From positions 1 to 10,615 of the forward strand of contig NZ_CALADU010000260.1 in NCBI RefSeq assembly GCF_937890665.1: a stretch of 10,615 nt of DNA, given 5' to 3'. Below the pieces are notes generated by a model, which worked only from the letters and a program-made list of their open reading frames with translations, was not told the DNA's origin and did not search any database. Within the stretch, counting starts at the first letter, position 1. The number at the start of each line of letters is the position of its first letter. The translations under genes and the position numbers were made by a program. This document shows, one piece after another, positions 1 through 10,615 of the stretch. The stretch is from an uncultured Subdoligranulum sp. GTDB lineage: Bacteria; Bacillota_A; Clostridia; Oscillospirales; Ruminococcaceae.

Positions 1-29
1 GCGCAAACGCGGATGGGCGTATCGTCCAT
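1..29 (-). CDS. Start of a leftward gene, paralogue of the 193-aa Fn3/GH28-like gene (partial)
   Basis: The complement of 27-29 is an ATG, preceded by an AAAGGAG ribosome site at a good distance. The nine complete codons in the window read MDDTPIRVC, identical in DNA and protein to the start of the gene at 6284-6865. Everything after codon 9 lies outside the window. From the intact start and its own ribosome site I infer a second copy of the same gene. It could be the full-length GH28-type enzyme of which the 193-aa gene is a shortened version, but that cannot be seen here. Its orientation makes it divergent from the DUF5107 gene, so both could share the 30-274 regulatory region. Confidence 0.6.
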
Positions 30-55
30 GGCAGGCTCTCCTTTCGGCGGCAGGT
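1..55. repeat. 55-bp direct repeat, copy 1 (matches 6837-6891)
   Basis: These bases are identical to 6837-6891. The repeat covers the first codons of a leftward gene, its ribosome site and the leader, and stops abruptly at 55/56. In the other copy the break falls at the stop codon of the GH115 gene. The left limit is set by the window edge, so the repeat may be longer. Perfect identity across non-coding bases points to a recent duplication or recombination. Confidence 0.95.
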
Positions 56-88
56 CCGCAGCCCCGCCGTACGGGATGTTTTTTCCCA

Positions 89-117
89 ATTGTAGCAGAG
101 GCCACCGTCGCCGGAAA
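89..117 (-). promoter_or_regulatory. Possible leftward promoter for the partial gene at 1-29
   Basis: On the minus strand, TACAAT (complement of 89-94) is preceded by TGC (95-97), giving an extended -10 element of the form TGnTACAAT. The region 17 bp upstream (112-117) reads TTTCCG, a poor -35, as extended -10 promoters tolerate. It lies about 60 bp upstream of the leftward ATG. The call is by motif only. Confidence 0.35.
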
Positions 118-176
118 GGTAAAAAACCGGCTTGTGCCGTGCACAAATCCGGGCATTCCGCCGGTCGGGCTGGACA

Positions 177-211
177 CCGCAGTTTTGGCGAACTTCTGCC
201 GCAGTTTTGGC
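177..211 (+). promoter_or_regulatory. Candidate AraC-type operator: 13-bp direct repeat at 22-bp pitch
   Basis: CCGCAGTTTTGGC occurs at 177-189 and again at 199-211. The start-to-start distance is 22 bp, about two helical turns, which places both copies on the same face of the DNA. Tandem half-sites about 21 bp apart are the classical arrangement bound by AraC-family dimers. The promoter-proximal copy ends two bases before the position expected for the -35 box of the DUF5107 promoter, as in activation at the -35 edge. The regulator encoded at 3566-4393 is the obvious candidate ligand. Binding itself is inferred. Confidence 0.55.
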
Positions 212-213
212 TA

Positions 214-242
214 GTGCGGCCGGATTTTCCCGGGTGTATGAT
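214..242 (+). promoter_or_regulatory. Likely promoter of the DUF5107-araC unit
   Basis: TATGAT at 237-242 is a good -10 box. Seventeen bases upstream the -35 position (214-219) reads GTGCGG, which does not resemble TTGACA. A good -10 with a missing -35 next to a direct-repeat operator is what an activator-dependent promoter looks like. Transcription would start near 249 and give a short leader containing the AGGGAGG ribosome site (261-267). Confidence 0.45.
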
Positions 243-274
243 GCAGAAAAAGCAAAAACCAGGGAGGTTTTATC

Positions 275-3200
275 ATGCAGCATCGACCCCATGAAGCCCA
301 GGTCTGGTCCAAGACCGTCACCATCCCCACTTACGGCGTGGGCCAGCCCGACAAGAACCCAATGTTCCTGGAAAAGCGTGTCTACCAGGGTTCCTCCGGC
401 AAGGTCTACCCCTACCCGGTCATTGACAAGATCCTGGACGAAAAGCAGGACAAAGAGTACACCGCTGTCTTTTTGGAGAACGACTACCTCAAGGTCATGA
501 TTCTGCCCGAATTGGGCGGCCGCATCCAGCGCGCCACCGACAAGACCAATGGCTACGACTTTGTCTACTACAATCATGTGATCAAACCGGCGCTGGTGGG
601 CCTGCTGGGCCCCTGGATCAGCGGCGGCATCGAGTTCAACTGGCCCCAGCACCATCGCCCCACAACCTTTGCCCCCACCGACTGGCAGATACTGGAGAAT
701 GCCGACGGCTCCAAGACGGTGGAGTGCAGCGAGGTGGACCAGATGTACGGCACCAAGGGCAAGGTGTCCTTCACCCTCTACCCCGACAAGGCCTACATCG
801 AGGTCAAGGGCCAGCTGTACAACCGCACGCCGCTGCCCCAGACCTTTTTGTGGTGGGCCAACCCGGCAGTGCCGGTCAACGACAACACCCAGTCCATCTT
901 TCCGCCCGATGTGAACGCGGTGTTTGACCACGGCAAGCGGGCGGTCAGCGACTTCCCCATCGCCACCGGCATCTACTACAAGCATGACTACGGCGCCGGG
1001 GTGGACATTTCCCGCTACAAGAACATCCCGGTCCCCACCAGCTATATGTGCGCCCACTCGGACTATGACTTTGTGGGCGGCTACGACTACGGCGTGGGCG
1101 CGGGCATCCTGCATGTGGCCGACCACCATGTCAGCCCCGGCAAAAAGCAGTGGACCTGGGGCTGTGGGGATTTCGGCCAGGCATGGGACCGCAATCTGAC
1201 CGACGCGGACGGCCCCTATGTGGAGCTGATGACCGGCATGTACTGCGACAATCAGCCCGACTTCACCTGGCTGGCCCCCTATGAGGAAAAGGTGTTCACC
1301 CAGTACTTCATGCCCTACAAGGCGGCGGCTCAGGTCAAGAACGCCAGCAAGGAGGCTGTTCTCGACCTGGAGGTGCAGGACGGCCGGGCCAGGGTCACCG
1401 TTTATACCACCCAGCCCTTCCCCGCCGCCCGGGTGCTGCTGACGGCGGACGGTGCGCCCCTGTTGGACCGCAGCGCCGACCTCTCCCCCACCCAGGTCTT
1501 TACCGCCGAGGTGCCCTTCACCGGCAAGGAAACCGTCCTGACCCTGGCGGTGTTCACCGCCGGCGGACGGGAGCTGCTCCGCTATACGCCGCGCCCCAAG
1601 ACCATCGAGAAGATCCCCGACCCCATGCCCCCGGCCAAGCAGCCAGAGGAGATCCAGACGGTGGAGGAACTGGTGTTCACCGGCCAACACATCGAGCAGT
1701 ACCGCCACGCCACCTACCTGCCGGCCCCCTACTATCAGGAAGCCCTGCGCCGGGACCCCGGCGACAGCCGCGCCAACACGGCCTACGGCATGCTGCTGCT
1801 GCGCCGGGGTCGCTTTGCCGGTAGCGAGCCCTATTTCCGCGCCGCCATCGCCCGGCTGACAGAGCGCAACCCCAACCCCTATGACAGCGAGTCCTACTAT
1901 GGCCTGGGACTGGCCCTGTTTTACCAGGGCCGGGAGGCGGAAGCCTACGACGCCTTCTACAAGGCTACCTGGACCGCCGCCCAGCAGGAGATGAGCTTTT
2001 ACTATCTGGCCTGCATCGACGCCCGGCGCGGGGAATACGCCCTGGCGCTGGAGCATGTGGAGCGCAGCCTGGTGAAAAACGGGCACAGCCTGAAGGCACG
2101 GGCCCTGCGTGGCCTGCTGCTCCAGGCCCTGGGCCGGGACGCCGAGGCCAGGACCTGGCTGCAGGAAAACCTGCGGCTGGACGGTTTTGACTACACCTCC
2201 CGCCTGGCGCTGGGTGACACCGACACCGCCCTGCGGCTGATGGGCGGCCGCCCCTCCACCTTTGTGGAATGTGCCATCGACCTGGCCGAGGCAGGCTTCT
2301 GGCAGAAGGCCGCCGATCTGCTGGACCGTTGCCCTGCGCCCACGCCTGTGGTATACTATCACAAAGCGCTGTATGCCGCCCGGTTCGACGCGGCCCGCAG
2401 CCAGGCGGCGCTGGCCGAAGCGGCCGGGGCCTCCAGCCTCTACTGCTTCCCCAACCGGCTGGAGGACATCGCGGCCCTGCAGTTCGCCATGGAACACAAC
2501 CCCGCCGACGCCAAGGCCCCCTACTACCTGGGCTGCCTGTGGTATGACCGCCGCCAGTACGACGATGCCATCGCCTTGTGGGAGCGCAGCGCCGGATCGG
2601 ACGGGCGTTTCCCCACGGTGTGGCGCAACCTGGCCCTGGCTTACTACAACAAACGGGGCGACGGCGCCAAGGCCCTTGCCAGCCTGGAAAAAGCCTACGC
2701 CCTGGACGAAGGGGACGCCCGGGTGCTGCTGGAACTGGATCAGCTGACCCGCAAGCTGGGCCATACCCCCGCCCAGCGGTTGGCCTTCCTGGAGGCGCAC
2801 CTGGATACCGCCCTGCGCCGGGACGACCTGTATGTGGAGTATGTGACACTGCTCAATGACCTGGGCCGCTATCAGGATGCCTACGACCGCATCATGGCCC
2901 ACACCTTCCATCCCTGGGAGGGCGGCGAGGGCAAGGTGACCACCCAGTACGCGGTGGCCCTGACCCAGCTGGCCCGGCAGGCTCTGGCCGCCGGGCAGCC
3001 CGCCCTGGCCAAGGAACTGCTGCAGAAGGCCCTGGTGTTCCCCCACAACCTGGGCGAGGGCAAGCTGGAGGGCGCCAAGGACAACAACATCTACTACTAC
3101 CTGGGCCTGGCCGAGCGCGCCCTGGGCCAGGAGGCGGAGGCCGCCGCCCACCTGCGCCGGGCCGCCGCCGGGGATGAGGAACCCGCCAGCGCCCTCTACT

Positions 3201-3541
3201 ACAACGACCAGCCCGCCGACCTGATCCTCTACGAGGGATTGGCCGCCCGGGCCCTGGGGGACGAGGAGCGGGCGTCCAGCCGGTTCCACAAGCTGATCTC
3301 CTACGGCAAGAAACACTACTACGATGAGGCGCACATCGATTACTTCGCGGTATCGCTGCCCGATCTGCAGCTCTTCGACGAGGACCTGACCCAGCGCAAC
3401 CGCGCCCACTGCGAATACCTCATCGGTCTGGGCAGCTATGGTCTGGGCGATGCCGCCACTGCCGCCCGCTGCTACGAGGCTGTGCTTTCCATCGACGCCG
3501 CCCACCAGGGCGCCCTGCTGCACAGGGCTCTGCTGGGGTAA
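275..3541 (+). CDS. DUF5107 domain and tetratricopeptide-repeat protein
   Basis: The 1088-aa protein starts at an ATG 7 bases after AGGGAGG. Residues about 40-350 look like a DUF5107 domain, a family I associate with galactose-mutarotase-like beta-sandwich folds. It is rich in aromatic residues, with the signature GPWISGGIEFNWPQHHRPT at 112-130 and the PGKKQWTWG stretch at 288-296. Residues about 368-440 form a short beta-rich, Ig-like linker. From about 490 to the C-terminus the protein is helical with many TPR-like units, for example around 500-620 and again through 800-1080. No signal peptide or membrane segment is visible, so it is probably cytoplasmic. The biochemical role is not established from sequence. 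The conserved aromatic and histidine motif suggests sugar binding or a glycosidase/epimerase-like activity, with the TPRs as a scaffold. It is followed 24 bp later by an AraC regulator, probably in one transcript. Confidence 0.85.
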   Translation: MQHRPHEAQVWSKTVTIPTYGVGQPDKNPMFLEKRVYQGSSGKVYPYPVIDKILDEKQDKEYTAVFLENDYLKVMILPELGGRIQRATDKTNGYDFVYYNHVIKPALVGLLGPWISGGIEFNWPQHHRPTTFAPTDWQILENADGSKTVECSEVDQMYGTKGKVSFTLYPDKAYIEVKGQLYNRTPLPQTFLWWANPAVPVNDNTQSIFPPDVNAVFDHGKRAVSDFPIATGIYYKHDYGAGVDISRYKNIPVPTSYMCAHSDYDFVGGYDYGVGAGILHVADHHVSPGKKQWTWGCGDFGQAWDRNLTDADGPYVELMTGMYCDNQPDFTWLAPYEEKVFTQYFMPYKAAAQVKNASKEAVLDLEVQDGRARVTVYTTQPFPAARVLLTADGAPLLDRSADLSPTQVFTAEVPFTGKETVLTLAVFTAGGRELLRYTPRPKTIEKIPDPMPPAKQPEEIQTVEELVFTGQHIEQYRHATYLPAPYYQEALRRDPGDSRANTAYGMLLLRRGRFAGSEPYFRAAIARLTERNPNPYDSESYYGLGLALFYQGREAEAYDAFYKATWTAAQQEMSFYYLACIDARRGEYALALEHVERSLVKNGHSLKARALRGLLLQALGRDAEARTWLQENLRLDGFDYTSRLALGDTDTALRLMGGRPSTFVECAIDLAEAGFWQKAADLLDRCPAPTPVVYYHKALYAARFDAARSQAALAEAAGASSLYCFPNRLEDIAALQFAMEHNPADAKAPYYLGCLWYDRRQYDDAIALWERSAGSDGRFPTVWRNLALAYYNKRGDGAKALASLEKAYALDEGDARVLLELDQLTRKLGHTPAQRLAFLEAHLDTALRRDDLYVEYVTLLNDLGRYQDAYDRIMAHTFHPWEGGEGKVTTQYAVALTQLARQALAAGQPALAKELLQKALVFPHNLGEGKLEGAKDNNIYYYLGLAERALGQEAEAAAHLRRAAAGDEEPASALYYNDQPADLILYEGLAARALGDEERASSRFHKLISYGKKHYYDEAHIDYFAVSLPDLQLFDEDLTQRNRAHCEYLIGLGSYGLGDAATAARCYEAVLSIDAAHQGALLHRALLG

Positions 3542-3565
3542 ACCATCACCCGGGGAGGGGTGCCC

Positions 3566-4393
3566 ATGTTTTCCTGTGAACCGCTGGTCACACCCGGTTC
3601 CCGCTATTACAACTACGCCGCCGGGGCCCTGGCCCGGTCCAGCCTGCTCTGCCTGCAGTGCATCGGGCTCTTCACCTACCTGCCCGGCTACCAGCTGGCC
3701 CGCCGTTCCTACGACAGCTTTCTGCTGGAGGTGATCCTGGACGGCGAGCTGGAGGGAGAGAGCGACGGCAGACCCTTTCGGGCGGTGCGCGGCAACGCTG
3801 TATTGCTGGACTGCTACCGTCCCCACCGCTACGCCTCCGCCACCGGGTGGCAGGCGCTGTGGCTGCACTTTGACGGGCCCGGCGCCCGGGGCTACTACGA
3901 TTGGATCACCCGGCCCGGCGGTCCCGTGCTGGCCCCCGAAAACTTTGAGGAACTGCACCGCAGTCTGGCAGGATTGTTCCAGCAGTTCGACAACGGCCCC
4001 ATTCCCGGTGAGGGGCAGATGGCCCGGGAGATCGCCGGGGCGCTGGGGCTGCTGCTGGACCCGCCGGAAACGCCCCCGGGCAGCGGCGGGCTGGACAGGG
4101 TGCTGCGCACCATCAACGAAAACCTGCATTGGGAACTCTCGGTGCGGCAGCTGGCGGAGCAGGCCCATTTCAGCGAGTATCACTTTATCCGGCTGTTCCG
4201 CAGCCAGGTGGGCATGACACCGCGGCAGTACATCATCACCGCCCGCATGGAACGGGCCCGCCACCTGCTCAAGACCACCGACCTGCCGCTGGAGACCATC
4301 AGCGAGCAGGTGGGCTACACCTCCGACAGCGTGTTCTGCACCCAGTTCAAGCGCCGCTACGGGGTGACCCCAACCGAGTACCGCCAAACTTGA
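3566..4393 (+). CDS. AraC-family transcriptional regulator
   Basis: This 275-aa protein has the usual AraC layout. The N-terminal half (about 10-150) is a cupin-like sensing domain, and residues about 183-275 form the double helix-turn-helix DNA-binding domain. The first HTH begins LSVRQLAEQAHFSEYHFIRL at 191. The second starts at LPLETISEQVGYTSDS (240), followed by FKRRYGVTPTEYR at 261-273, the family hallmark. I chose the ATG at 3566 over the GTG at 3560, because GGGGAGG at 3552-3558 sits 7 bases before the ATG and would overlap the ribosome footprint for the GTG. It lies 24 bp behind the DUF5107 gene and in front of a strong terminator. It probably senses a sugar and controls the promoter upstream of the DUF5107 gene, and possibly the opposing enzyme genes. 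Confidence 0.93.
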   Translation: MFSCEPLVTPGSRYYNYAAGALARSSLLCLQCIGLFTYLPGYQLARRSYDSFLLEVILDGELEGESDGRPFRAVRGNAVLLDCYRPHRYASATGWQALWLHFDGPGARGYYDWITRPGGPVLAPENFEELHRSLAGLFQQFDNGPIPGEGQMAREIAGALGLLLDPPETPPGSGGLDRVLRTINENLHWELSVRQLAEQAHFSEYHFIRLFRSQVGMTPRQYIITARMERARHLLKTTDLPLETISEQVGYTSDSVFCTQFKRRYGVTPTEYRQT

Positions 4394-4405
4394 TACCTGA
4401 CAGAA

Positions 4406-4441
4406 AACCGCCCGGGCAGCCTTACGGCTGCCCGGGCGGTT
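4406..4441. terminator. Bidirectional intrinsic terminator
   Basis: The arms 4406-4421 and 4426-4441 are perfect 16-bp complements with a TTAC loop, and the stem is very GC-rich. On the minus strand the stem runs into TTTT, so it ends leftward transcription well. Rightward, the tail (CGCTGTTGT) is less U-rich. It lies 12 bp after the AraC stop codon and 13 bp beyond the stop of the leftward fragment at 4455, so it separates two convergent units. Confidence 0.88.
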
Positions 4442-4454
4442 CGCTGTTGTGGTT

Positions 4455-4943
4455 TTATGACGGACCGGCTTTGGCTTTCATGGCCTCGTAGAGGGCCAGG
4501 TCGTCTAGGTGGTTCTCCATATTGGTGATGAGCACCACCCGCGCCTGGGCGGGGGTGTAGAGCACCTGGCGCTGCCAGGTGTAGAAGTAGGGGCCGTCCC
4601 CCTGGTTGCGCAGGCAGCCCATCAGGGTGCTGCCGTCCAGGCTATACTGTTCGGTGGAAGAGAAGGTGTCCTCCGTATCCACCTTCATGCGCACAGTGGC
4701 AATGTAGTCGGTGTCCGGCTGCACGGCGATGGTCTGGTGCACTTCGCTCTGGTCGGCCAGCTGTACAGCCTGGCTGCCGGTATCGGCGGCATTGGTCAGC
4801 GTGACCGTGCCTTTAGTCTGCCAGCCATCCAGACCGTCTTCAAAGTTCCAGTTGCTGACGGGATTGTTGTCGCTGGCGTCCAGTGTGATCTCGATGTCAT
4901 CGAGGGAAAGACCGTCTGTGTAGTTGACAAAGGTCAGTGTCAT
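4455..4943 (-). pseudogene. Gene fragment: carbohydrate-binding-like domain fused to the GH115 C-terminus
   Basis: The reading frame ends at TAA (4455-4457) just before the terminator. Read from the only ATG (4943) it gives 162 aa, but that ATG has no ribosome site. The frame stays open for 65 further codons back to a TGA at 5139-5141, with no ATG, GTG or TTG. Coding-like sequence appears to begin near 4990. Residues 1-106 look like the end of one beta-sandwich module and most of a second, CBM-like one: NWNFEDGLDGW at 31-41, then SEVHQTIAVQPDTDYIATVR at 66-85. Residues 107-156 are identical to residues 600-649 of the GH115 protein at 6891-8861, after which the tails differ (AKAGPS here). I read it as the 3' remnant of a second gene, scrambled by recombination. 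A functional small protein is unlikely but not excluded. Confidence 0.75.
4476..4626. repeat. 151-bp direct repeat, copy 1 (matches 6915-7065)
   Basis: It aligns without gaps to 6915-7065 at 149 of 151 positions. The two differences are T at 4506 versus C at 6945, and G at 4596 versus A at 7035. Both are silent third-position changes in the shared reading frame. The match ends sharply on both sides, at residue K156/K649 on the left and after L107/L600 on the right. Confidence 0.95.
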
Positions 4944-5058
4944 CTGGCCGTTGTAGACCAGGACATTGCGGTGCGCGGCTTCTAAAGCGCCAACTTTTCC
5001 AGGTATATAAAAAGAATTTCGGAAAATATCAAACTTTTCGACTTGGCCCTTCCAAAAG

Positions 5059-5101
5059 AATACGTCTCGAATTGTACAAGCTGCACAATTCGAGACGTAT
5101 T
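5059..5101. terminator. Perfect 17-bp inverted repeat; probable terminator of the leftward enzyme run
   Basis: The arms 5059-5075 (AATACGTCTCGAATTGT) and 5085-5101 are perfect complements around the 9-base loop ACAAGCTGC. On the minus strand the stem continues into TCTTTTGG and on the plus strand into TTTACG, so it can act as a terminator in both directions. It lies 95 bp beyond the stop codon of the CE2-type gene. The stem is only moderately GC-rich and fully perfect, so an operator or a mobile-element end is an alternative. The rest of about 4985-5195 holds no gene I can support and is AT-richer than its surroundings. Confidence 0.55.
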
Positions 5102-5195
5102 TTACGTTCCAAGGTTCTCCCTTTACCCGGCTACAAATTCAGCGAACCTCGTTTTCCCATCACTTTCGCATGCTTCTTTCCTGTACGGATGGGGA

Positions 5196-6284
5196 TCATT
5201 GTGGCAAAAGCGGGCGCAGGGCGTCCGACAGGATTTTTGCCACGACGGTATGGGCCGCGGCGGAAGGATGGTTGTTCGCTCCGATTTGTTCCGATGGCGT
5301 AGGAGGAAGGGGCACATACTGTACCGTATCCCCGCTTTCACCGGTATACCGGCGGATGGCTTCCATAATGTAGGGTTGCATCACCTGGCCAAACATGCCG
5401 TATGCCCAGACCAGACGCGCGCCCGGGTTGCAACGGCGCAGTTTCTTTAAAAAAGCAACGCCGCACTGCACAAAACGTTCCGCCGTTTCCGTGTCAGGAA
5501 GTCCGTCAGGGCCTCGCCGCAGACAAAAACCATCCTGAAAGGGAGGCTCATCCAGTGCAAAACCGTCATTATACCCCAAGTGCACCAGGACGATATCAGG
5601 TTGCCAGGCGGCAAAGTCGTTCGGCTGTGCCGCCCCCAGTGCGGCGGCCTGCAGGCCGGGCACCAGGCCGCAGACCATTTCGTAATATGGTGGTAGCGTT
5701 TTGGCCCGGTCATTATCCCAGCCTGCTAACAATCCCCAACCGCTTTGCGATAGGATGCGCAGGTCGGCAGCGAGTGCCCGCGCCGTTTGCAGTGCATAAT
5801 GGTTTTCGGTAGAAAACACCATGGAGACACCATCCTTGGTGCTGACAGCCCCTGCCAATCCCTCGCCGCTGGAAATGCTGTCGCCGATCACTTCGATCTT
5901 GTAAGGGCGGGGCGGTATGGCGCGCAGTTCCCCTTCGCAGATGATCGTTGCCAACGTCAGCAACGAAGATGGGTCACGCTGCATGGGCTGGGTCTCTTTA
6001 TACAGCCGCACGCGCCGCCAGCTGCCCGAAGTCATGTCTCGCCACACGGTCAGGGTATTTTGTCCGCGGCCGAGCGGCTGGCGCAGTACAGTCGCGCCGT
6101 CCACCTCCACACGCACCCACGGCTCGCGGGTAGTAAAGCTGGCATCCAGTACAAAGGCCAGCATCCTGGCGTTGGTCTCCAGCTCGACGCCGGAGGCTGT
6201 CCAGAACAGCGGCAGCGGGATCTGACGCACCGTGCGGCCATGGATGACGACGCGCGGATCCAGCGGTGAAATTTTCTGATTCAT
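5196..6284 (-). CDS. CE2-type SGNH carbohydrate acetylesterase
   Basis: The 362-aa protein has two parts, as in carbohydrate esterase family 2. The N-terminal beta-sandwich (about 10-120) contains VVIHGRT (12-18) and LFWTASGVELET (26-37). The SGNH hydrolase domain (about 128-360) has EVIGDSISSGEG at 131-142 with the nucleophile S136, HLGYND at 235-240 as the oxyanion block (usually GTND), and GANNHPS at 335-341 with the probable catalytic H339. Family members remove O-acetyl groups from xylan or related oligosaccharides. No signal peptide is visible, so it probably acts on imported sugars. Its ATG overlaps the TAA of the upstream gene by one base (TAATG), with AGGGAGG inside that gene's end, so translation is coupled. 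It appears somewhat less GC-rich than the GH115 gene. The exact CE family and substrate are inferred. Confidence 0.82.
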   Translation of the reverse strand: MNQKISPLDPRVVIHGRTVRQIPLPLFWTASGVELETNARMLAFVLDASFTTREPWVRVEVDGATVLRQPLGRGQNTLTVWRDMTSGSWRRVRLYKETQPMQRDPSSLLTLATIICEGELRAIPPRPYKIEVIGDSISSGEGLAGAVSTKDGVSMVFSTENHYALQTARALAADLRILSQSGWGLLAGWDNDRAKTLPPYYEMVCGLVPGLQAAALGAAQPNDFAAWQPDIVLVHLGYNDGFALDEPPFQDGFCLRRGPDGLPDTETAERFVQCGVAFLKKLRRCNPGARLVWAYGMFGQVMQPYIMEAIRRYTGESGDTVQYVPLPPTPSEQIGANNHPSAAAHTVVAKILSDALRPLLPQ

Positions 6285-6865
6285 TAGTCTTCCTCCCTGT
6301 CAGGCGCAGTCGCGAAGCTCACTTCGCAGCAGCGCCGCAGCCGCAGTTCGCAGCCATTTTCAGCAAACGTACAGCCGTAAAAATGCACCCTGCATACCTC
6401 GCCGCCCGGTTCCTCAAATCCTTCGACCTCGACCGGGCAGACCTCCTGCCAGGCCCCCTGCACCAGCGCGCGGCCTGTCAACGTCACGCCGGTGAAGGTA
6501 AAGTCAGAAAATTTCGGCGGCTGCGGGGCCGGCATGCCATCGTTGTTGTAGGGCACGGCGTGGATCAGAACGCGCGGGGCGCGGCAGTCCCGCACGGTGA
6601 TGTCCCGCGCATCCAGCCGGGGCAGCCGCGGTTCGGTGGAGGCCCGGCAGGTCCCCAGGGACCGGCCCTCCAGCCAGACTTCCAGGGTATATTCGGTGGC
6701 GGGGGCAAGTCCCGTCAGGGTGCAGTGGGTGTGGGCCACCGTCACCGGAATGCGCCCCCCGGCGCAGACCTCGTAACGGCAGTCCGCCGGTGCCCCGGCG
6801 GGTTTGTCCCAGTAGAGGGTCAGGGTATCGGCGGTGGCGCAAACGCGGATGGGCGTATCGTCCAT
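6284..6865 (-). CDS. Fn3 domain plus GH28-like C-terminal remnant (internally deleted?)
   Basis: This 193-aa protein starts at an ATG 8 bases after AAAGGAG and lies 25 bp behind the GH115 gene. Residues 1-78 form a fibronectin-III-like domain (LTLYWDKPAG at 15-24, LTGLAPATEYTLEVWLEG at 50-67). Residues about 86-193 look like the last rungs of a GH28 pectinase beta-helix: ITVRDC (89-94), PYNNDGMP (105-112), and PPKFSDFTFTGVTLTG (116-131), like the PxxSDITFxNI pattern near GH28 C-termini. Bacterial GH28 enzymes with an N-terminal Fn3-like domain are usually around 500 aa and carry the catalytic Asp residues in the middle, all of which are absent here. I infer an in-frame internal deletion near residues 85-90. 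It has 12 cysteines, many for its size. It could instead be a binding protein in its own right; intact signals and coupling to CE2 suggest it is still translated. Confidence 0.6.
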   Translation of the reverse strand: MDDTPIRVCATADTLTLYWDKPAGAPADCRYEVCAGGRIPVTVAHTHCTLTGLAPATEYTLEVWLEGRSLGTCRASTEPRLPRLDARDITVRDCRAPRVLIHAVPYNNDGMPAPQPPKFSDFTFTGVTLTGRALVQGAWQEVCPVEVEGFEEPGGEVCRVHFYGCTFAENGCELRLRRCCEVSFATAPDREED

Positions 6866-6891
6866 GGCAGGCTCTCCTTTCGGCGGCAGGT
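6837..6891. repeat. 55-bp direct repeat, copy 2 (matches 1-55)
   Basis: Identical to 1-55. Here the repeat spans the first codons and ribosome site of the 193-aa gene up to the last base of the GH115 stop codon. It is separated by 23 bp from the 151-bp repeat at 6915-7065. Confidence 0.95.
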
Positions 6892-8861
6892 TACGGCTGC
6901 TGCAGCTTTTTCTGTTTCATGGCCTCGTAGAGGGCCAGGTCGTCCAGGTGGTTCTCCATATTGGTGATGAGCACCACCCGCGCCTGGGCGGGGGTGTAGA
7001 GCACCTGGCGCTGCCAGGTGTAGAAGTAGGGGCCATCCCCCTGGTTGCGCAGGCAGCCCATCAGGTCCCGCAGCAGCCAGGCCGTGTGCTTCACATCGGT
7101 CAGGCACTCGTTGGCGTAAAAAACCTGCCACTTGCCGTGCTCCCGGCTGCGCAGGGCGGCGTCGGCGGCCAGGTATTCCTCCCGGGCCTGCCCGGCCTTG
7201 TAGAAGGCGGTCAGGTACTGCCCCGCCAGCCCGTCAAGGATGGCCTCGGCAGCCAGGGCGCCGCCGGCGTAGCACCGGCGATAGACATCCATCTGCAGCA
7301 GCACGCTATCCTGCAGCAGGGCGGGGGCATCAGGGTCGGGGGCCGGATAGCGGCGGGCACCCTCCCGGCAGAGGTCCCGGTACCAGGCCGCCTGCTGCGC
7401 CAGGGTGGGCAGTGGGGCTGCCCAGTCCAGCTCATGCTCCGAGCCCTCGCCGCCGTGCATGTACCGGCTGATGAGCACCCGGGCCGGATAGTTGGCGAAC
7501 TGTTCCCCGGCCACGTTGTCCTCGTGGGGACCAAAATGGAGGGCCGCCGTGTAATATTGGCGGAACGCCTGCTCCGCCCGGGAGGCGTCGGGGCCGTAAT
7601 AGCGCCGGACATAGCTTTGCAGGAAAGCCCCGGCGGGGGTGGGGCCGTCCTGCCAGATCCGGGCGATGTAAGCCAGGGTGAACAGGTGGGGCTTTACGTT
7701 GGAAGCATTGATGATCCAGTATTCCTTCACGCCCCGGTCCAGAACCCGGCCCAGTTCCCGCTCCACGAATTCCGGCGGGGTGGGCAGCATGGTGATGTGG
7801 TTGGCCGCCTGCAGGTCGTAGAAGGAGGCGTGATAGTAGATGCCGTGGGGCCCCGGCTCCCCGGGCCCGGGCAGGGCGGGCACCCGGGGGTCGTGGTTGC
7901 CCTGGCGGCGGCTGACCATGGCGCCGTAGCCGTTGTCCGCCCAGATCTTGATGACCGCCGGGGGCAGCTGCAGATAGCCGTCCCGGTAGAGCTCCATCAC
8001 CTCGCCGTACAGGTTGGTTGCGCAGGCCGCGCCGGGGTAGCGCTGCTGCACCAGCTCATACTGGCGGCGGATAAGGCGGCTCATCAGGGCGCCCCGGGCG
8101 GCGGGGGTGTCGTAGCGTGGGTCATCCACCCAGAAAGGCCGGTCCCCCTGGCCGCGGAACCCCAGGTTCCAGACCACGTCGGGGCCCTGTTCTTCCAGGG
8201 CGGCGATCCACAGCGCCTCGAACTCGGCAGGGTGTTCGTCATAGCGGGGGTCCAGATCGGGGTAGGCCTCGCAGAACAACTGCGCCCCCAGGGGCTCGGC
8301 GTGGTGGTGGGTCACGGCCAGTCCCATGCGCTGGGCCAGGGCCCGGTGGCGGGCGGCGTTCTGGCCGGTGCCGGGGATCACCATGTTGCCGCCGCAGCGC
8401 AGCAGGGCCTCCAGGGCCATCTCCCAGGGCAGCTCGCTGCTTCCGCCGGGCCGCCAGGCGCTCAGCAGCACCTCATCGTTGAGGAACCACCCCCGCCAGC
8501 GCACCGCCGCCGGACGGCTCTGCCGGGCGTAGCCCCCGGCCACCGGGATGCTCTCCTGCGGGGTGAAGTGCTGGTCATTCCAGAACCAGAAGTCCTCCAC
8601 CCCCAGCAGTTCCCGGCTAATGGCCAAAAGGCCGTAGAGAAAGCCCCGGTCATTCCCGGCGGTCACCGTCAGGGTATCCCCGGCGGCGGTCAGCTGCCAG
8701 CTTTCCGGCGGCAGATCCGCCGGTACCAGCCGGATCTGCCCCCCGGGCCGGGCAGTGGGCAGGCAGACGGTGTCCAGGTCCCGGCGCAGGATGTCCATGC
8801 CGTGGCGCACCGGGCCGGAGGGATGTTCTGCGATGATCCGGGTATTGCGGTTCAGTTCCAT
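6891..8861 (-). CDS. GH115-family alpha-glucuronidase-like glycoside hydrolase
   Basis: The protein has 656 aa. I start it at the ATG complementary to 8859-8861, which has a textbook AAGGAGGT site 5 bases upstream. The frame continues further upstream but only over the esterase gene. Features of family 115 are: an N-terminal GH20b-like domain ending in GFLYGLLAISRELLGV (73-88); RWRGWFLNDE (121-130), matching the RGIFINDE signature; IWADNGYGAM (306-315); GNHDPRVPA (321-329); and HGIYYHASFYD (339-349). Family members remove (4-O-methyl)glucuronic acid side chains from glucuronoxylan or arabinogalactan. There is no signal peptide, and the protein is shorter than the secreted Bacteroides enzymes, probably lacking their C-terminal beta-sandwich. 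Its last 50 aligned codons (600-649) are duplicated at 4476-4626. It follows the CE6-type gene by 11 bp. Confidence 0.85.
   Translation of the reverse strand: MELNRNTRIIAEHPSGPVRHGMDILRRDLDTVCLPTARPGGQIRLVPADLPPESWQLTAAGDTLTVTAGNDRGFLYGLLAISRELLGVEDFWFWNDQHFTPQESIPVAGGYARQSRPAAVRWRGWFLNDEVLLSAWRPGGSSELPWEMALEALLRCGGNMVIPGTGQNAARHRALAQRMGLAVTHHHAEPLGAQLFCEAYPDLDPRYDEHPAEFEALWIAALEEQGPDVVWNLGFRGQGDRPFWVDDPRYDTPAARGALMSRLIRRQYELVQQRYPGAACATNLYGEVMELYRDGYLQLPPAVIKIWADNGYGAMVSRRQGNHDPRVPALPGPGEPGPHGIYYHASFYDLQAANHITMLPTPPEFVERELGRVLDRGVKEYWIINASNVKPHLFTLAYIARIWQDGPTPAGAFLQSYVRRYYGPDASRAEQAFRQYYTAALHFGPHEDNVAGEQFANYPARVLISRYMHGGEGSEHELDWAAPLPTLAQQAAWYRDLCREGARRYPAPDPDAPALLQDSVLLQMDVYRRCYAGGALAAEAILDGLAGQYLTAFYKAGQAREEYLAADAALRSREHGKWQVFYANECLTDVKHTAWLLRDLMGCLRNQGDGPYFYTWQRQVLYTPAQARVVLITNMENHLDDLALYEAMKQKKLQQP
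6915..7065. repeat. 151-bp direct repeat, copy 2 (matches 4476-4626)
   Basis: This copy encodes residues 600-649 of the GH115 protein and is the intact context of the repeat. Two silent differences separate it from the copy at 4476-4626. Confidence 0.95.
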
Positions 8862-8872
8862 AAAGGACCTCC

Positions 8873-9661
8873 TTATTTGGGTCGTGCCGCCAAAAGCCCG
8901 AGGGCGTGGACGGCGTTTTGGGCGGCTTCCGCCCCTACTTCGTTGTAAGCTTGCTGATAATAGTGGAACGCATCCTGCATCAGGCCCCTGGCCTTCATAC
9001 CGGCGAAAGTGGTGGAGACAAGGTGGACATGGGACAGTTCCCGGCACAGTTCCTCCTGCGCCTGGCGGATCGGTCCATAGCAGACAGCGGGGGCCTCCCC
9101 GTTGTAGCAGCCGATGCGGATCAGGAGGCAATCCTCCACGCCCTGCTCCTGCAGCGCGTGGAACATTTGTGTGAAACGCTGCTTGTATAAGGCGGGCGGT
9201 GTGGCCGCGTCCCCGTCCGATTCGCCCTGGCACCAGAGCACCAGACAGCGGCGGATCTGCCATCCGCTTCGGGCAAGGAAGCTCCGGGCCGACTCCAGGC
9301 GTTCCTTGGCATCTGTCAGATAGCGGCTGCCAGGCAGCCATTCTTCGATGCGGCTGCCGCCCTTGGACGCCGATACGCCCACCACCGGAACGCCGGTCCG
9401 GGCAAACCAGGTGTTGGCAAAGGCGGTGGCAAGGGAGCCGGTCTTTCTCTGCCCATCATCGATGCCGCCGGGGCGGTCCTCCGTGGCGCCGAAGGGTTCT
9501 TCCAGGGGGAACAGCCGGCCGGGGGCGGATATGGCACGATATTCATACCCGGCCCCCGGCACAGGTGCCGGGGCGGGCTGAGGGTGCAGCGCATCGGTGA
9601 TACCGCGCCCTGCCATGTTGGATTGGCCCATAAACAGGACCAGATCGGCCGTATTTTGCAT
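8873..9661 (-). CDS. SASA/CE6-type carbohydrate acetylesterase
   Basis: The 262-aa protein is a single-domain SGNH hydrolase of the sialate O-acetylesterase/CE6 type. VLFMGQSNMAGRG (8-20) carries the nucleophile S14. SASKGGSRIEEWLPG (97-111) and VLWCQGESDGD (141-151) are the next conserved blocks, and QDAFHYYQQAYNEVG (229-243) supplies the probable catalytic D230 and H233. CE6 enzymes deacetylate xylan or xylo-oligosaccharides, while relatives act on sialic acids. Next to a GH115 enzyme, a plant hemicellulose or pectin substrate is more likely. No signal peptide is present. The start has GGAAGGA 7 bases upstream. It is the first gene after the hairpin that separates the ABC permease from the enzyme genes, and its stop codon overlaps the GH115 ribosome site. 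Confidence 0.87.
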   Translation of the reverse strand: MQNTADLVLFMGQSNMAGRGITDALHPQPAPAPVPGAGYEYRAISAPGRLFPLEEPFGATEDRPGGIDDGQRKTGSLATAFANTWFARTGVPVVGVSASKGGSRIEEWLPGSRYLTDAKERLESARSFLARSGWQIRRCLVLWCQGESDGDAATPPALYKQRFTQMFHALQEQGVEDCLLIRIGCYNGEAPAVCYGPIRQAQEELCRELSHVHLVSTTFAGMKARGLMQDAFHYYQQAYNEVGAEAAQNAVHALGLLAARPK

Positions 9662-9693
9662 AGTGCCATCCTTCCGGTGTTTGAAACAGAAAC

Positions 9694-9748
9694 CGGCAGG
9701 AACACGCGGGGGACCAGGCCTTTGCCCGGTCTCCCTGCGTTCCTGCCG
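9694..9748 (-). terminator. Long two-part hairpin after the ABC permease (terminator or attenuator)
   Basis: The outer arms 9694-9703 and 9739-9748 pair perfectly over 10 bp. The inner arms 9712-9719 and 9724-9731 pair over 8 bp with one G-U, around a 4-base loop. On the minus strand it is followed by GGTTTCTGTTTC, a moderate U-rich tail. It lies 45 bp after the permease stop and 32 bp before the CE6-type start. It may end the transporter transcript, or only reduce read-through into the enzyme genes. I see no convincing promoter between it and the CE6-type start. Confidence 0.6.
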
Positions 9749-9793
9749 TGTTTGGAAAACGTCGGGCGTTGCGCAAACGGCTTTGCGGGGGTA

Positions 9794-10615
9794 TCAGCCC
9801 TTGATGCCGTCGGTGGCGATGCCCTCCACCAGGTATTTCTGGAAGATGATGAACACGACGATGACCGGGATCAGCGACACCACGGACATGGCGAAGAGGC
9901 CGCCGTAGTTGTTGAAGCTGTTGGGGTCGGTGTACATGTTCAGCGCCAGCGGGATCGTGAAGTTCTTGGGGCTGCCCACAAAGATCAGCGGCTGGAAGAA
10001 GTCCTGCCAGATCCAGTAGAAGGCGAAGATGGAGGCCGAGACGATGGCGGGCTGCACCACCGGCACCAGGATGCGGAACAGGATGCCGATCTTGCTGCAG
10101 CCGTCGATCTGGGCGGCTTCATCCAGCTCCTTGGGCACGCCGCGCATGTACTGCACGATGAGGAAGATGAAGAAAGCGTAGCCGAAGCACCAGGGCAGCA
10201 CCATGGCGGCCAGGGTGTCGTTGAGATGCAGCGCCCGCAGAATGATGTACTGGGGCACCACCATGACCTGGCTGGGGATCATCATCGTCATGATGACGCA
10301 GCCGAACCAGAAGCCGGAGCCCCGGAACTTGACGCGGGCCAGGGCGTAGGCCGCCAGCAGCGAGCTGAAGATGCTGGTCACCACCGACACCAGGGTGACG
10401 ATCACCGAGTTCTTGAAGAAGTGCATAAAGCTGTATCCGGCCACGCCTGCCAGACCGCTGAGGTAGTTCTGCACCACGTCCCAGGTCTCCGGGATCAGGG
10501 AGTAGGTGTTGTGGAACATGGTGTCGTTGGACTTGAAGGAGCTGGCCAGCAGCCACAGCAGCGGGTAGATCATGATGAAGCCCAGCAGGCAGGAAAATAC
10601 ATGGAACAGCACCGA
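9794..10615 (-). CDS. Carbohydrate ABC transporter permease, MalG/AraQ-type (5' end outside window)
   Basis: About 272 residues are visible, ending in the typical EGIATDGIKG tail. Six membrane segments can be seen, at about 1-22, 67-92, 100-125, 132-155, 186-212 and 238-260 (counting from the first GTG at 10612). The cytoplasmic EAA loop that docks on the ATPase is ELDEAAQIDGCSKIGILFRI (162-181). These are the marks of the second permease of CUT1 sugar importers, which take up oligosaccharides. The frame is still open at the window edge and the first membrane segment is already under way, so the true start is probably upstream. The partner permease and binding protein should lie to the right. 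It likely imports the oligosaccharide handled by the enzymes downstream. Confidence 0.93.
   Translation of the reverse strand, partial: SVLFHVFSCLLGFIMIYPLLWLLASSFKSNDTMFHNTYSLIPETWDVVQNYLSGLAGVAGYSFMHFFKNSVIVTLVSVVTSIFSSLLAAYALARVKFRGSGFWFGCVIMTMMIPSQVMVVPQYIILRALHLNDTLAAMVLPWCFGYAFFIFLIVQYMRGVPKELDEAAQIDGCSKIGILFRILVPVVQPAIVSASIFAFYWIWQDFFQPLIFVGSPKNFTIPLALNMYTDPNSFNNYGGLFAMSVVSLIPVIVVFIIFQKYLVEGIATDGIKG

Follow-up and report, generated by a model that had tools for sequence, protein, structure and literature searches.

Tandem duplications bordered by 9-bp microhomology have been selected in Escherichia coli, where microhomology was not strictly required (PMC11111574). Contigs built with metaSPAdes and MEGAHIT carry maxK end sequences at the points where repeats, shared regions or strain variation interrupt them (PMC10914622). 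Here we describe a 10,615-nt stretch of DNA, part of a plant-fibre gene cluster, from an uncultured, gut-type Subdoligranulum sp. (contig NZ_CALADU010000260.1, positions 1 to 10,615, forward strand; hereafter the window, meaning this whole stretch), in which the junction between a GH115 gene and an Fn3-type gene is represented twice and, on the left, a DUF5107 gene and an araC gene lie between its two parts. Our best account, to which we give about an even chance, is that tandem duplication produced a second copy of this GH115-Fn3 junction, partial and rearranged, in the left part of the window.

The repeat has two parts, which stand in the same order and the same orientation in the left and right copies. 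Pairwise alignment within the window gave 55/55 identity between 1-55 and 6837-6891, and 149/151 between 4476-4626 and 6915-7065 (mismatches at 4506 and 4596, both synonymous, with identical translations in the GH115 frame). The parts are separated by 23 nt on the right (6892-6914) vs 4,420 nt on the left (56-4475); the alignment given in the preliminary description of this DNA was correct. These two families are the longest direct repeats of the window, and the longest exact one measures 89 nt, while the maximum across 200 first-order Markov sequences was 17. Identity over the 60 nt flanking the repeats is 0.25-0.32, i.e., background, so the repeat borders are sharp. The features that make up the two copies are as follows.

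1 to 55, minus strand: left copy of the Fn3 gene start, with the sequence upstream and the opening 9 codons of a second Fn3-type gene that leaves the window.
6837 to 6891, minus strand: right copy of the 55-nt repeat, with the sequence upstream and the opening 9 codons of the Fn3 gene.
4455 to 4626, minus strand: left copy of the GH115 3' tail, 56 codons and a stop.
6915 to 7065, minus strand: the 151-nt repeat in its right copy, which falls within the 3' end of GH115.
4617 to 4626, minus strand: CCTGATGGGC, encoding Leu-Met-Gly, at the CBM/GH115 fusion.
4627 to 4985, minus strand: CBM_4_9 fragment, truncated at both ends and in frame upstream of the GH115 tail.

The left copy of the first repeat part opens at base 1 and is exactly 55 nt long, the two copies splitting at 55/56 (C at 56 vs T at 6892). 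A de Bruijn assembler leaves an exact k-nt repeat, branching at the next base, at a contig start, and the usual largest k of SPAdes is 55. The k lists quoted in PMC10914622 include 55 but extend to 99 or 127. Because the 55-nt length matches a common assembler k and the repeat starts at base 1, the extent of the left copy does not appear to be set by biology. Positions 1-55 are probably a vertex or end of an assembly graph at k = 55 rather than the natural end of a repeat, the length of 55 nt is probably uninformative on the biological repeat, and the latter likely continues leftward into the second Fn3 gene. We take the window to be a whole contig and the record to have been assembled at k = 55. 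As a practical point, when a contig edge carries an exact 55-nt repeat, a possible assembly signature is the first thing to consider, ahead of any biological inference.

The same edge introduces the main rival to tandem duplication, an assembly of mixed strains. A strain with the order GH115-Fn3 would have been joined artificially to a strain with the order CBM/GH115-tail-araC-DUF5107-Fn3, the links being the 55-mer that they share and the 89-nt core of the 151-nt repeat. The left end, being exactly a 55-nt overlap that splits at the next base, speaks for such a mixture, as do the repeat core, which is longer than 55 nt, and the maxK ends mentioned above, strain variation being among their sources. 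The contig nevertheless traverses unique sequence that separates the two copies, and on this and on the database evidence given below we hold a strain mixture to be a possible but less than even explanation.

According to the preliminary description, the DUF5107-araC unit was a cassette within a duplicated junction. This reading is partly supported. The unit does lie between two parts that are nearly contiguous on the right, but the left GH115 piece is a 3' tail only, fused in frame to the CBM_4_9 fragment, and a clean insertion into a whole duplicated junction is not supported: at least one further breakpoint exists at 4626/4627, and the left boundary coincides with the probable assembly-graph break. 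Database cluster P0002 (106 member sequences) shows this fusion of CBM to GH115 tail again, its ending being of the same type (AKAGPS/AKADPS), so a one-off misassembly at the fusion is unlikely; a one-off chimaera at 4626/4627 was considered and dropped, being contradicted by P0002. The GH115 C-termini of the window are MKAKAGPS in the left copy vs MKQKKLQQP in the right copy, and P0006 (18 members, 7 contigs) has the CBM fusion with the other ending, KQKKLQQP. This alternative pairing of fusion and ending speaks for a strain mixture, but the contig carries the commoner pairing in the database, that of P0002 with 106 members vs 18. The fusion is also seen with a short gap in the tail (P0003, 4 members) and terminating within the tail (P0004, 8 members). 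These clusters come from a protein search that admits only 0.55-1.75 times the query length and favours short or chimaeric forms. The same GH115 tail (4455-4626 and 6891-7163 in the window) is found joined to N-termini which we take, from their sequence and listed Pfam domains, to be BirA-like (P0009, 5 members) and ABC ATPase-like (P0010, 1 member).

At the joint, GH115 and the CBM relative P0005 (STLMGLLV) both have Leu-Met-Gly, while the CBM relative P0007 (TKLGMMV) has Lys-Leu-Gly; past the joint, both relatives diverge from the GH115 tail seen here. Judging from these comparisons, CCTGATGGGC may be a short-homology joint between GH115 and the CBM gene.

The unit itself consists of the following features.

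56 to 274, no strand assigned: intergenic region between the left Fn3 start (minus strand) and the DUF5107 gene (plus strand).
177 to 211, plus strand: candidate AraC operator, a 13-nt direct repeat (177-189 and 199-211, two exact matches 22 nt apart).
275 to 3541, plus strand: DUF5107-TPR protein, 1088 aa.
3560 to 4393, plus strand: AraC-family regulator, 277 aa, encoded after DUF5107 and in the same direction.
4400 to 4447, no strand assigned: GC-rich hairpin separating araC from the left GH115 tail, likely a bidirectional terminator.

The DUF5107 protein matches PF17128 (7.4e-62; 209.5 bits vs a cut-off of 24.4, profile positions 5-309 of 310) together with TPR families, and the regulator combines a helix-turn-helix region (PF00165 in two stretches, and PF12833) with an N-terminal binding domain (PF02311), above cut-off. 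The hairpin folds at about -48 kcal/mol on each strand (z of -8.8 and -9.95). A consensus scan for promoters and terminators gave 1 promoter-like site vs 2.0 expected and 9 terminator-like sites vs 6.5; it missed both long hairpins of the window (4400-4447 and 5059-5101) and was not used. The preliminary description had the unit filling the gap of about 4.4 kb exactly. The promoter region, the two genes and the hairpin are indeed all there, but 4455-4475 are the last GH115 codons and stop, so that the unit occupies at most 56-4454 and is bounded on the right by the GH115 stop at 4455 rather than at 4476.

A direct-repeat operator upstream of the target promoter is the layout of AraC-family systems. 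The 13-nt run at a spacing of 19-23 was attained in 1 of 5000 Markov samples of 56-274, and AraC probably binds this repeat upstream of DUF5107 and controls that gene. It may influence the divergent second Fn3 gene as well, and its autoregulation through the candidate operator is plausible.

The order of the two genes was compared in 22 loci of relatives, 4 of which were without a long DUF5107 match; 4 of the remaining 18 had been chosen for their AraC, and the AraC identities are 20-40%. An araC match on the opposite strand lies within 400 nt upstream of DUF5107 in 12/18 loci and farther upstream in three more (L141, L143 and L161), L138 has a weak same-strand match upstream, and L133 and L135 show none within the stretch examined. 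Since the divergent order prevails and araC downstream on the same strand, as in the window, was seen in 0/18, the arrangement of the window is unusual among these loci. When the AraC sequence was used as the query (E <= 1e-50, at most 6 candidates scored per genome), matches were obtained in 2 of 396 genomes of the family and 4 of 391 of the class, and in all six araC is located upstream of DUF5107 on the opposite strand.

The compact gene pair, the operator-like repeats and the terminator-like hairpin could suggest that DUF5107-araC is a mobile cassette, i.e., a transposable or integrating unit. The preliminary description had already seen neither transposase nor target duplication, and this held: no recombinase or transposase family was found among the 8 main open reading frames scanned with Pfam and NCBIfam (smaller frames were outside the scan), and at the ends of the unit neither target duplications nor terminal inverted repeats rise above background (longest direct match of 4-5 nt vs a mean of 4.8, longest inverted match of 6 nt vs 6.0, from 965 random position pairs). 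Phage and plasmid records, searched by megablast only, gave no match, and viral contigs, queried with one exact 40-nt pattern and with DUF5107, GH115 and CBM, yielded no relatives. A comparison with Rfam at the gathering score gave no match either. The G+C content at third codon positions of DUF5107 (0.87) and araC (0.86) resembles that of GH115 (0.89), which gives no sign of recent foreign origin. A mobile cassette is therefore disfavoured and, in our judgment, highly improbable. Transposon or integron insertion was likewise considered and dropped.

As to how the unit came to be present in one copy of the junction, the best 80 of 113 GH115 loci from named genomes were inspected, 7 of which hold <2 kb downstream. 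In L001 (Gemmiger formicilis An812, GH115 identity 72%), an Fn3-GH28 gene begins 107 nt past the GH115 match with nothing between, and in L037 a weaker GH28 match begins 57 nt past it. No DUF5107 match was found downstream of GH115 in any of these 80 loci; L034 and L054 have a DUF5107 match >8 kb before the GH115 end. The search of relatives called for in the preliminary description thus produced the junction without the unit in L001, and no genome of the same species was found among 35 genomes of the genus of G001, 396 of its family, 4 from the genus of G163 and 4 from that of G002. A GH115 match is present in 13 of those 35 (best 72%). The 396 family genomes, which were drawn from a larger group and scored with 2 first-look candidates per genome, gave 105 with a match to the window DNA, the best stretches being 72-79% identical apart from short ones. 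In L043:10001-11993 (Candidatus Faecalibacterium gallistercoris), the GH115 match comes in two overlapping pieces, suggesting a frameshift.

Among the 28 of 120 listed relatives whose GH115 C-terminal ends were compared, P0136 (MKQKRLQ) and P0138 (MKQKRLK) resemble the right-copy ending MKQKKLQQP. Member counts are similar for the cluster of the unit's AraC (P0012, 113) and that of the fusion (P0002, 106), vs 205 for GH115 (P0132), what one member stands for being unspecified. Between insertion in one copy and loss from the other, alternatives that the preliminary description had set side by side, the evidence is thin and leans towards an ancestral right copy and a gain of the unit on the left, because in L001, the one good relative, Fn3-GH28 comes next after GH115 with no such unit between them. 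The opposite history is a sub-question of the duplication reading, with which its odds overlap: the ancestral order would have been GH115-(araC/DUF5107)-Fn3, and the right copy would have lost the unit. It would suit a left GH115 tail that finishes at a stop of its own, with a terminator-like hairpin beside araC, and an ending that shares KAG with P0133 and P0134. L001 argues against it, as do the C-terminal codons of the right copy, whose resemblance to P0136 and P0138 shows that they are not a filler scar, and we consider such a loss unlikely.

Returning to tandem duplication, the order on the minus strand is ABC permease, SASA esterase, full GH115, Fn3 gene and probable CE2-type esterase, followed by the CBM fragment, the GH115 tail, araC and DUF5107 (reversed) and the second Fn3 start. 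From this order we infer a tandem arrangement and the following course of events. Illegitimate recombination would have taken place at CCTGATGGGC, as a short sequence common to GH115 and the CBM gene, with one endpoint of the duplication inside GH115 and the other in a CBM gene lying downstream of the esterase, and the intervening segment would have been copied. At 4626/4627 the outcome would be a CBM gene in frame with the GH115 tail and leading to a second Fn3 gene, the first copy staying intact. The DUF5107-araC pair would have ended up flanked by the second GH115 tail and the start of the second Fn3 gene.

Several observations weigh against this reading. Only 55 nt at the second Fn3 start fall within the window, and the rest of the supposed second unit would lie outside it. 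The homology at the joint (about 8-10 nt) is deduced from protein, where P0005 has Leu-Met-Gly and P0007 does not, and the second cut in the CBM fragment, at ~4985 beside an AT-rich stretch, is unexplained by a simple duplication model. The 89-nt exact repeat core exceeds 55 nt and is compatible with a switch of assembly path; the P0009 and P0010 fusions are probably assembly chimaeras, so a background of false joins exists. The closest relatives (80%), P0133 (ending MKRKAGQQP) and P0134 (ending MKRKAGQ), share features with both copies. GH28 precedes GH115 in L008, L018 and L019, and in L142 it lies on the other strand ~6 kb from GH115, so the order of GH115 and GH28 is not widely conserved. 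Finally, the operator word at <=3 mismatches is not above chance in the window (6 found, 5.0 expected).

The genes and other features of the right-hand part are the following.

9794 to 10612, minus strand: ABC transporter permease of sugar type (PF00528; the best NCBIfam models are sugar permeases, below cut-off).
8873 to 9661, minus strand: SASA-type carbohydrate esterase (PF03629).
6891 to 8861, minus strand: full-length GH115, 656 aa, the last base of its stop being 6891.
6284 to 6865, minus strand: Fn3-type gene without the GH28 catalytic region, 193 aa (fn3 score 23.1 vs a cut-off of 25).
5196 to 6284, minus strand: probable CE2-type SGNH/GDSL carbohydrate esterase (every Pfam and NCBIfam score falls just or far short of its curated cut-off).
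5059 to 5101, no strand assigned: hairpin with 20-nt arms downstream of the esterase gene, a possible terminator.

The esterase at 5196-6284 scored 30.0 against a cut-off of 32.9 for PF13472, 25.0 against 27.9 for PF17996, 23.4 against 23.6 for PF00657 and 73.5 against 500 for AxeC2. The stretch 4985-5200 has a GC content of 0.42 vs 0.64 for the window. The right-hand gene, earlier named Fn3-GH28, is missing the GH28 catalytic region: its 193-aa product pairs with the 85 N-terminal and about 108 C-terminal residues of the 495-aa protein of L001, in which the GH28 match (residues 187-395) falls within the missing middle. It is apparently an in-frame deletion form or the product of an assembly collapse.

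If both copies exist, the second might stand under a new, AraC-controlled divergent promoter and the first in the GH115 operon minus GH28, the copies being divided in regulation and function and polymorphic in the species population; this extension we regard as improbable. Should the duplication be real in single genomes, it would be a recent one, caught in the midst of the copying, trimming and re-regulation of a fibre-degradation operon with no sign of a mobile element.

Compared with known systems, the rearrangement looks like an ordinary local duplication, a known kind of event. It shares with bacterial tandem duplications with short-homology joints the direct copies, the new joint between unrelated genes and a putative very short shared sequence, but here the second unit is only partly seen and the second copy contains a gene pair. 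The left edge, an exact repeat of a standard k length that branches at the next base, resembles the end overlaps of de Bruijn contigs (the maxK ends used by COBRA), whereas the internal 151-nt repeat, at 149/151, is not of that kind. As in other Clostridia, a DUF5107-TPR gene stands beside an AraC-family gene, but theirs is mostly divergent and upstream, while that of the window is downstream on the same strand.

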